This document shows positions 46,967-49,028 of a DNA stretch of 57,862 nt, piece after piece. The stretch spans positions 1 to 57,862 of the forward strand of contig JAFVDW010000003.1 of NCBI GenBank assembly GCA_017478245.1. Reading direction: 5' to 3'. Source of the stretch: Lachnospiraceae bacterium. GTDB taxonomy: Bacteria; Bacillota; Clostridia; Lachnospirales; Lachnospiraceae. The position numbers were made by a program, and so were the translations under genes. Within the stretch, counting starts at the first letter, position 1; each line of letters begins with the position of its first letter. The notes beneath the pieces were generated by a model, which saw only the letters and a program-made list of their open reading frames with translations, did no database searches and was not told the DNA's origin.

Positions 46967-48160
46967 TCAAACCTCATCGGCTGTGACGCTCACAATGAAT
47001 GGGATCACCATCTCATCCTCTGTCAGTCCTGCATGCACACCGATAAAATGTTCTGCCTCTTCTCTTGTATTGTAGATGGACAGGTCACTTACGGCGATTG
47101 CCAGATAATCACCCAACATGGTGCGGAAATTCTCATGCTCTTTTCCTGTGCCGAAAATCCTCTCTTCCAGAACCTTCTGCTTGTTCCAAAGAAGAAATTT
47201 ATCTCCAAACAATCTGTGAAATTCCTGTTCAAACTGTTCTTTTTTCTCCTCTTTCACGAAAAGATTCAATGCTCTGGGCTCAATAGAGGGCATACGCACC
47301 AGACACTCCATCAGGGTGGGATAATCCGTTATGGCGACTCCTTGGGAATCCATATGACCGTGATCCGCCGTAACGATAATCAGGGTGTCCGTTAGCTGCT
47401 CTGACAAGGCTCTCACCTGCTCCTCCAACTGACTAAGCAACTCCTTTGACGCTTCACTATAGCATCCTGTCTCATGCATTATTTGATCCGGCTCATTCCA
47501 ATAAGCATAAATGTACTTCTGCTCCGGCAACTGACACAGCTCCAAAATGTGGGCGCAGATTTTTTCAAAGGTATCCGGGAAAGGAGCCTCAAAGGGGGAC
47601 ACCGGATACGCCTTCCCACCGGCTTTGTTGATTTTATCCGCAATACTCTCGTATCCGCAGTATGTCCAAGGCACATTGTACGCCGCCGCAGCTTCTTCTG
47701 TTCCCTGCTCCACATTCAGGAACACCGTCACATTTTTGTCCACCTGCGGATAGTAGCAATCCCATCCTAGCCAACCGTGCTCACAAGGGGTAAGACCACT
47801 GAGGATGGAAGTGGTGGCTGCCACAGTGGTAGGCGGAAAGGTGGAGCTGTAGATACCTGCCAGATGCGTCCGAAAGAAACCATTTTCTTCCAGATTGCGC
47901 TCCAGAATACATTTTCCCATTCCATCTAACAATATCACTACAATATTTTGATAGTTCTCCTCCAGATGGGCATCCGCCAGCGGCAGACTGGAGCCATTGG
48001 GCTCCAGTCCCCATTTCTTCAGAATCGAATTGGGCAGATTGGCGATGCAGTTCTGGTAATCCGGCTGCCTGATCTTTTTACACATGGTCTTCTTGTGTCG
48101 TATTTCTTTGCTCATTTTCTTCTCACTCGTTTTCTTTTCACTCGTTTTCTTTTCTTCCAT
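46967..48160 (-). CDS. Alkaline-phosphatase-superfamily phosphodiesterase/nucleotide pyrophosphatase
   Basis: 397 residues from the ATG at 48160 (GGAGG, 6-nt spacer). A Lys/Glu-rich N-terminal stretch is encoded by three 15-bp repeats. The metal sites of the superfamily are visible: VILLDGMG near the N-terminus, the nucleophile Thr in STFPPTTVAATTSILSG, YWNEPDQIMHETG and VTADHGHMDS, with a last His near the C-terminus (GVHAGLTEDEM). No signal peptide, so it probably acts on a cytosolic phosphodiester or phosphonate. It overlaps the preceding GNAT gene by 23 bp and shares its attenuated transcript. Confidence 0.88.
   Translation of the reverse strand: MEEKKTSEKKTSEKKMSKEIRHKKTMCKKIRQPDYQNCIANLPNSILKKWGLEPNGSSLPLADAHLEENYQNIVVILLDGMGKCILERNLEENGFFRTHLAGIYSSTFPPTTVAATTSILSGLTPCEHGWLGWDCYYPQVDKNVTVFLNVEQGTEEAAAAYNVPWTYCGYESIADKINKAGGKAYPVSPFEAPFPDTFEKICAHILELCQLPEQKYIYAYWNEPDQIMHETGCYSEASKELLSQLEEQVRALSEQLTDTLIIVTADHGHMDSQGVAITDYPTLMECLVRMPSIEPRALNLFVKEEKKEQFEQEFHRLFGDKFLLWNKQKVLEERIFGTGKEHENFRTMLGDYLAIAVSDLSIYNTREEAEHFIGVHAGLTEDEMVIPFIVSVTADEV
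48104..48148. repeat. Three 15-bp tandem repeats in a gene overlap
   Basis: On the minus strand AAAACGAGTGAAAAG, AAAACGAGTGAGAAG and AAAATGAGCAAAGAA follow each other. They encode EKKTS-like repeats at the start of the phosphodiesterase, and the first contains the stop codon of the GNAT gene. A copy change keeps the frame. Confidence 0.75.
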
Positions 48161-48656
48161 TTTCTTCCTCCACAAAACATTCCATATATCTTCTAAAGGT
48201 AACAAAGCTCATTGCTTCATAAAAAGCCAGTGCCCCCTCATTAAACTGCCACATATCAAGCTCTAACTTGGGGAATCCCTTTTCCCTGGCATCCTGCCTG
48301 GCAAACTGTATCAGGGCGGTTGCCACTCCCATTCTTCTATGCTTCTCGTCCACACCAAATTCTTCTATGTGGTAAAGCCTTCGCTCCCGGTTATAAGGGG
48401 ATGCGGAGCGGTGGATGTATTGCACCTGCGCATAGCCCACCAGTTCTTCTCCCCAAAATGCTGCAATCACACCGCTGTCTTCATCCTCGAATCTTTTGTA
48501 CACAATATCCCTGATATGCTCCCAGGCATCTGCCCTGAAGATGTCAGGACGCCCATTCACATGCACGTCATTGACCTGTCTCCGTATTCGATTCACCGCC
48601 TCAAGTTCTTCCCGCAAGGCGTACCTAACCGTAATATTTTCCATATTTATGCTCAT
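48138..48656 (-). CDS. GNAT-family N-acetyltransferase under leader control
   Basis: 172 residues, ATG with AAGGAG 8 nt upstream. Motif A is EEFGVDEKHRRMGVATALIQFA; the ending is EGALAFYEAMSFVTFRRYMEC. It resembles the GNAT at 6498-6968 (shared VN-VH--GRPD-F). It is the first full gene after the attenuator-like leader at 48739-48993, and is translationally linked to the phosphodiesterase by a 23-bp overlap. The substrate is unknown; an antibiotic or a ribosome-related target is possible given the leader and the ABC-F neighbour, but this is speculation. Confidence 0.9.
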   Translation of the reverse strand: MSINMENITVRYALREELEAVNRIRRQVNDVHVNGRPDIFRADAWEHIRDIVYKRFEDEDSGVIAAFWGEELVGYAQVQYIHRSASPYNRERRLYHIEEFGVDEKHRRMGVATALIQFARQDAREKGFPKLELDMWQFNEGALAFYEAMSFVTFRRYMECFVEEENGRKENE

Positions 48657-48738: not shown

Positions 48739-48993
48739 AAAAAATGCACCGAACTACATTTAAGTCCGATGCACTCAATCATGGGAAAATATTATAAATA
48801 AAGCTTTACATTCTCACATTTATGCATCGGCTCAAAAAGACCTACGGGCTTTAGACCAATGCACTTCTCGCTTTCGTCTAACGCGCCATACGTCCGTCAT
48901 ACCAATACATATATCGTCTGGAATGTAAATTCTGCTTCATCGTAATCATATTCCTTTCTGTATCTCTTTCAAAATACCTTATCTTACAAGATT
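48739..48993 (-). ncRNA. Candidate transcription-attenuation leader RNA
   Basis: Predicted RNA from the start point near 48993 to a terminator at 48739. In transcript order there are four segments. A is UGCAUUGG (48863-48856), B is CCGAUGCA (48830-48823), C is UGCAUCGG (48773-48766) and D is UCGGUGCA (48752-48745). A pairs with B (8 bp). C pairs with D in a 10-bp hairpin followed by six Us (48744-48739), an intrinsic terminator. B and C are exact reverse complements and can form an antiterminator that breaks both. A small ORF ends 14 nt before A. An additional 9-bp inverted repeat (TTTACATTC/GAATGTAAA, 48805-48813 and 48921-48929) brackets the region. Confidence 0.7.
48878..48949 (-). CDS. 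Putative leader peptide (23 codons)
   Basis: ATG at 48949 (AAAGG, 3-nt spacer) or, better spaced, ATG at 48940 (20 codons), stop TAG at 48878. The peptide ends RRYMYWYDGRMAR, unusually rich in Arg, Tyr and Met. Its stop lies 14 nt before attenuator segment A, so a ribosome stalled at the end of the ORF could mask A. Translation is inferred, not shown. Confidence 0.5.
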   Translation of the reverse strand: MITMKQNLHSRRYMYWYDGRMAR

Positions 48994-48999
48994 TCGTCT

Positions 49000-49028
49000 A
49001 TCATAGCACATCAAAAAATGGTTGTCAA
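49000..49028 (-). promoter_or_regulatory. Strong promoter of the leader-GNAT-phosphodiesterase transcript
   Basis: Consensus TTGACA (49028-49023), 17-bp spacer, TATGAT (49005-49000), starting only 15 bp after the ABC-F stop codon. Confidence 0.85.

Follow-up and report, generated by a model that had tools for sequence, protein, structure and literature searches.

The minus strand of a 57,862-nt stretch of Lachnospiraceae DNA (contig JAFVDW010000003.1, hereafter the window) carries, at 49028-48739, a leader in which a promoter, a short open reading frame (ORF), four segments termed A to D and a terminator were all found in the sequence. Related leaders occur at no fewer than 44 places in 41 genomes, all of one bacterial family. 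As the first-pass annotation had proposed, ribosome-mediated transcription attenuation, with B:C as the putative antiterminator, is supported by a partner-swap test of the RNA helices and by in-frame constraint on the ORF. We give a probability of about 0.5 to the reading that this attenuator is switched on by ribosomes waiting at tyrosine codons of the ORF, perhaps when tyrosyl-tRNA synthetase (TyrRS) is poisoned.

Organization of the leader and its competing helices

The leader ORF, MKQNLHSRRYMYWYDGRMAR, occupies positions 48878..48940 (20 codons and a stop). The frame is also open from an ATG at 48949, which gives the 23 codons originally annotated; related leaders align with the in-frame ATG at 48940. 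A Shine-Dalgarno-like AAAGGA lies at 48952..48957, and AAGGAG-like sites were seen by eye upstream of many related ORFs. Segment Z (48921..48929) spans codons 4-7, and segment M (48901..48911) covers codons 10-14, the Tyr codons, and may pair with B in untranslated RNA. Segment E (48872..48895) comprises the end of the ORF and the bases just beyond. Fourteen nucleotides separate the stop codon from segment A (48856..48864; 8-nt TGCATTGG at 48863-48856), the partner of B. It is followed by A' (48838..48859), which runs from the 3' part of A through GTAGGTCT and is the partner of E, by B (48821..48831; 8-nt CCGATGCA at 48830-48823), which is common to M:B, A:B and B:C, and by Z' (48805..48813), the partner of Z. 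Segment C (48763..48775; 8-nt TGCATCGG at 48773-48766) would form the antiterminator with B and the terminator with D (48743..48755; 8-nt TCGGTGCA at 48752-48745), the terminator 3' arm, which leads into six U residues at 48739..48744. B and C are exact reverse complements, and pairing of A:B and C:D uses G-U pairs. The order ORF, A, B, Z', C, D and U tract is found along the 26 aligned leaders.

The 258-nt leader folds at −84 kcal/mol, compared with −52.8 ± 4.2 kcal/mol for 200 dinucleotide shuffles, none of which folded as well (z −7.5); the 3' 144 nt alone give a z of −4.9. A chance origin of the window leader is very unlikely because related leaders keep the segments. The promoter (49000..49028) matches the consensus at 11 of 12 positions, with TTGACA at 49028-49023, a 17-nt spacer and TATGAT at 49005-49000 preceded by TG. 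By itself this match is not significant, since three sites with at least 9 matches were found in 2.5 kb and 3.2 were expected; TTGACA-like sites were seen by eye upstream of many other leaders of the family. The promoter, ribosome-binding site, segments, hairpins and spacing reported at first pass are thus all present. In an alternative fold, 48864-48737 can pair A with D around B:C, which needs two bases past the U tract.

For each of A:B, B:C and C:D, the swap test found a better fit between the two arms of one leader than between arms drawn from different leaders. A:B gives a z of −4.6, with 96.2% of alignment cells paired, and column counts lend B:C modest support. Two further helices, E:A' (z −6.7; −24.7 kcal/mol in the window) and Z:Z' (z −5.7), hold in all eight leaders of a later test. 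The outermost pair of Z:Z' covaries, being C-G, U-A or A-U depending on the leader. The six outer pairs of E:A' are formed in all 156 cells of the 26 leaders and are mostly invariant; both sides change at 5 of the 10 inner pairs, with 66.7% of cells paired in this alignment. The weakest helix is M:B (z −2.7), which does not rise above the controls A-D and B-D and holds in 5/8 later leaders. Half of these later leaders nearly duplicate leaders found before, and segment D was taken too long in that test, so that its C:D and M-D figures are unreliable. The swap test, later leaders and column counts point to mutually exclusive terminator, antiterminator and anti-antiterminator helices.

The leader ORF and its peptide

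Judging from its substitution pattern, the leader ORF is translated and under modest amino-acid constraint, because the ratio of nonsynonymous to synonymous differences (pN/pS) among 14 ORFs of 20 codons is 0.59 in frame and 0.83 and 1.02 in the other frames. This set includes one row (L070) that is misaligned, its codons being shifted by indels; without it the values are 0.56 in frame and 0.89 and 0.97 in the other frames. Length changes in the alignment are, by eye, mostly multiples of three. Counting that of the window, 35 of the 44 places contribute an intact ORF, 16-22 codons long. Left out of the count are L033, whose leader stretch is identical to that of L032; L047 and L059, which lack the upstream part; L050 and L088, which have lost the start codon; L069, in which no terminator was found; L082, which contains N; L092, with its early stop; and L093, at a contig edge.

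The peptide, which was not recognized at first pass, now falls in a Tyr-rich set whose consensus, from the 26 aligned leaders, is close to MNQNLHSRRYMYMYYRRICL. Tyr is the commonest residue, with 99 occurrences in the 35 ORFs vs 41.7 expected from shuffled ORFs (a 2.4-fold enrichment), and both codons are in use (TAT 65, TAC 34). Met, Arg and Leu are also common; the enrichment figure covers Tyr alone. The frame that encodes the common peptide is lost in L031 and L034, though the RNA is kept. With L032 these two carry Leu-rich peptides; those of L090 and L094 are Ile-rich, and L071 encodes Asp-Met-Asp-Met-Asp, with three Tyr-to-Asp differences from L055 of the same genome. One genome (L113; G595 C1 357500-372000) holds two leaders separated by 6.4 kb, MNQNLHSRRYMYMYYRRIAL before a GNAT fusion and MKHNLHSRRDMDMDLRRIRL upstream of a gene for a DUF1287 protein. 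At codons 10, 12 and 14, Tyr in MNQNLHSRRYMYMYYRRIAL corresponds to Asp in MKHNLHSRRDMDMDLRRIRL, with the identical first-base difference each time.

Predicted switch states and the signal sensed

To judge from the helices and from calculated states, the leader ORF is part of an anti-antiterminator, which ribosome stalling would disrupt. Untranslated RNA would be OFF and a ribosome paused in the middle of the ORF would turn the switch ON; a ribosome on the stop codon would cover E and not A, so that A:B could form and the switch would again be OFF. The first-pass annotation had instead supposed that a ribosome at the ORF end masks A and frees B to pair with C. The exact complementarity of B and C and the short distance from stop codon to A favor that version, as does the calculation for RNA ending at C, in which B:C still exceeds A:B with a ribosome on the stop codon (mean 9.0 vs 3.5 pairs); the OFF state at this position therefore needs A:B to be formed first or D to be made. 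We nevertheless hold it to be very unlikely, as it does not consider E:A', a stop-codon ribosome makes A:B highest and B:C lowest on average over 26 leaders, and the complete window RNA is then calculated to be OFF with footprint edges at +13, +15 and +17. For the same three footprints, stalls at codons 5-7 of the complete window RNA are also calculated OFF, and the Tyr codons fall within the calculated ON zone. Adding two bases past the U tract allows A:D pairing and widens the calculated ON range to codon 18; conclusions on the ON range rest on calculations without these bases.

According to the reading that we prefer, a shortage of Tyr-loaded tRNA would pause ribosomes at the mid-ORF Tyr codons and switch on the downstream enzymes, mostly acetyltransferases. 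Tyr enrichment, the placement of Tyr codons in the ON zone, a spare TyrRS behind one leader and, by analogy, candidate leader peptides before trpS2 and leuS suggest such a signal. One copy (L081) precedes that spare enzyme, the divergent second TyrRS of genome G103, which scores 313.4 bits compared with 422.7 bits for the copy elsewhere in the genome and shares 30.7% identity with it. The search for TyrRS in 11 genomes gave 15 matches, two being weak, and this is the sole one with a leader nearby. A second TyrRS was thus seen behind 1 of the 44 places. The trouble sensed may be a poisoned synthetase. GNATs would then fit, because MccE and RimL acetylate aminoacyl-nucleotide inhibitors, the step to our GNATs being an inference. 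Neither RimL nor MccE is named among the PDB matches, and no direct comparison with either was made. SB-219383 is a tyrosine analogue targeting TyrRS. Against this reading, 8 of the 35 ORFs contain no Tyr and the targets are mostly GNATs. Our confidence in it is also lowered by the start of the ON zone, which shifts with the footprint assumed, and by the near-duplicates that make up half of the later leaders.

A serious though less probable alternative is that the same attenuator responds to an antibiotic which targets the ribosome and arrests it within the ORF, as for vmlR, hflXr or toiL; the Tyr run would then provide a context for arrest or result secondarily from RNA pairing. Peptide variability, including the Tyr-less ORFs, and the likeness of downstream products to modifying enzymes (GNATs at 31 of 44 places, phosphorylases at 7, methyltransferases at 3) are consistent with it. 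The anti-antiterminator logic is also that of vmlR and hflXr (PMC9226507, PMC6310831), and stalling at any of several positions elicits the toiL response (PMC12121999). The Tyr enrichment, the spare TyrRS and the OFF prediction for stalls at codons 5-7 argue against it, as does the finding that none of the eleven downstream proteins scanned, the window GNAT among them, reaches an NCBIfam cut-off, resistance families included; by that scan none of the eleven is a known resistance determinant. There is little chance that the leader is a structured RNA sensed without translation, through a ligand or protein, with an incidental ORF. The mostly invariant outer E:A' pairs and the RNA kept by L031 and L034 despite a differing peptide would suit it. 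Against it stand the 35 intact ORFs, whose lengths mostly change in frame, the in-frame constraint, the Tyr enrichment and the lack of an Rfam match at the gathering score. An ordinary terminator or constitutive leader without regulation is similarly improbable, even though truncation or a broken ORF affects some copies (L047, L050, L088, L092). More speculatively, and in our view improbably, a single RNA platform could, by exchange of its codons, report the loss of one aminoacyl-tRNA or another, that of Tyr for most leaders and others for the Asp-Met-Asp-Met-Asp, Leu-rich and Ile-rich copies. It would serve as a general alarm for poisoned aminoacyl-tRNA synthetases. The enzymes it switches on would be acetyltransferases that can cap aminoacyl-nucleotide inhibitors, in the way that MccE and RimL act on microcin C, along with a nucleosidase-like phosphorylase and, in one case, a spare TyrRS.

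Comparison with known systems

T-box leaders sense tRNA charging in Firmicutes by binding tRNA directly. The T-box covariance model has no match in the window leader, and across the whole window Rfam 15 gives no match at the gathering score. In a further Rfam scan the best hit reached 19.5 bits vs a cut-off of 50. A T-box was found at 5 of 13 TyrRS loci searched. One lies beside the TyrRS fragment of the window genome at a contig edge (L105 1040-1295), so that its housekeeping TyrRS may be under T-box control. Another T-box leader (98.6 bits; L019 2442-2755) lies near a methyltransferase locus of G093.

In the trp and his attenuators, the ribosome must pause at particular codons and the hairpins are mutually exclusive. 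The present family shares such hairpins and may share the pausing, and some amino-acid attenuators, like one leader here, precede an aminoacyl-tRNA synthetase; it differs in its Tyr codons, in lying mainly before GNATs rather than biosynthesis genes, and in that the start and end of the ORF themselves pair. In the E. coli toiL-topAI-yjhQP operon, yjhQ encodes an acetyltransferase and yjhP a methyltransferase. An upstream ORF there senses translation stress ahead of the operon, working, unlike our leaders, through translation and Rho termination (PMC12121999); the likeness drawn here is one of description. Candidate attenuators lie upstream of Streptomyces trpS2 and leuS (PMC1262725). The predicted logic resembles that of B. 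subtilis vmlR, in which the anti-antiterminator contains the leader ORF and cannot form when a ribosome stalls there; the antiterminator then arises and the intrinsic terminator is avoided (PMC9226507). The vmlR ORF has 3 codons and is linked to stalling at initiation, whereas the ORFs described here have 16-22 codons, are mostly Tyr-rich and are predicted ON in mid-ORF, E:A' makes the stop-codon position OFF, and the downstream genes differ. In Listeria rli80/hflXr, a short ORF likewise overlaps an anti-anti-terminator within a terminator/anti-terminator switch (PMC6310831), but it encodes 14 residues with an RLR macrolide motif, in another host and before another gene, and is again likened by description only.

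Downstream and neighboring genes

In the window, the leader is followed by a GNAT acetyltransferase gene (48138..48656, minus strand; 172 residues; Pfam PF00583, E 9.3e-18) and by a type I phosphodiesterase/nucleotide pyrophosphatase-like gene of uncertain start (46967..48205, minus strand; PF01663, E 2.5e-16). A counterpart of this GNAT (45% identity) follows the leader in L089. The 31 places with GNATs of the tested families (23/32 and 8/12 in two sets) include six that supplied the query GNATs. The single phosphorylase examined by scan, that of L032, shows distant similarity to both AMP nucleosidase and uridine phosphorylase; a TIM-barrel protein is found downstream at two places. A 126-residue protein is encoded by the second gene behind the leader in L037 (2160-2537) and L053 (2228-2605), with 81% identity between copies; the L037 copy has no Pfam or NCBIfam match. 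In G103, the leader and second TyrRS are immediately preceded by a gene for an Mrr-type restriction endonuclease (PF04471; L081 405-1433). The ABC-F gene adjoining the window leader had been taken at first pass to suit a theme of translation stress. It matches DNA beside the leader in the window only, among 32 loci, with one 27% partial match (L080) among 12 more, and this neighbor looks incidental.

Distribution of the leader family

When 138 genomes of the window's genus were searched at the DNA level, 15 gave matches at E 0.01. Four of these, besides the window, are clear relatives, the remaining matches being short; these four precede a phosphorylase-like gene or a methyltransferase. Covariance models of the leader core (R1) and of wider extent (R2, R3) found leaders in 8 (R1) and 19 (R3) of the 138 genomes, and R2 in 21 of 397 genomes drawn from the family and 2 of 23 of another genus. 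Among 291 genomes sampled across the class, members of the family among them, the window was the sole R2 match. The total of 44 is a lower bound, the large searches scoring few candidates per genome, and includes L047, a copy without its 5' half found with R1. Five R1 matches (L041-L045) were judged by eye to be due to chance, and R3 gave no additional place in relatives of G595 and G626. Nucleotide patterns and blastn, with the queries tried, gave no match in viral contigs, plasmids or phages. Peptide-derived DNA patterns matched one Mesorhizobium contig and three viral contigs, and a search with the peptide against 41 genomes turned up three weak matches in addition to the window itself (E 0.05 to 0.8); neither was used for any claim.

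Significance

We found no description of this leader family in Rfam or in the open-access literature, including the parts used of two noncoding RNA surveys, and within these sources it represents a form of ribosome-mediated attenuation not described before. For a group of uncharacterized acetyltransferases from a single bacterial family, it provides a signal and a wiring that can be tested. Should the reading based on Tyr-tRNA hold, Tyr leader-peptide attenuation exists alongside T-box control, and the genes behind the leader would point to natural TyrRS inhibitors in the habitat of these bacteria and to enzymes that remove them.
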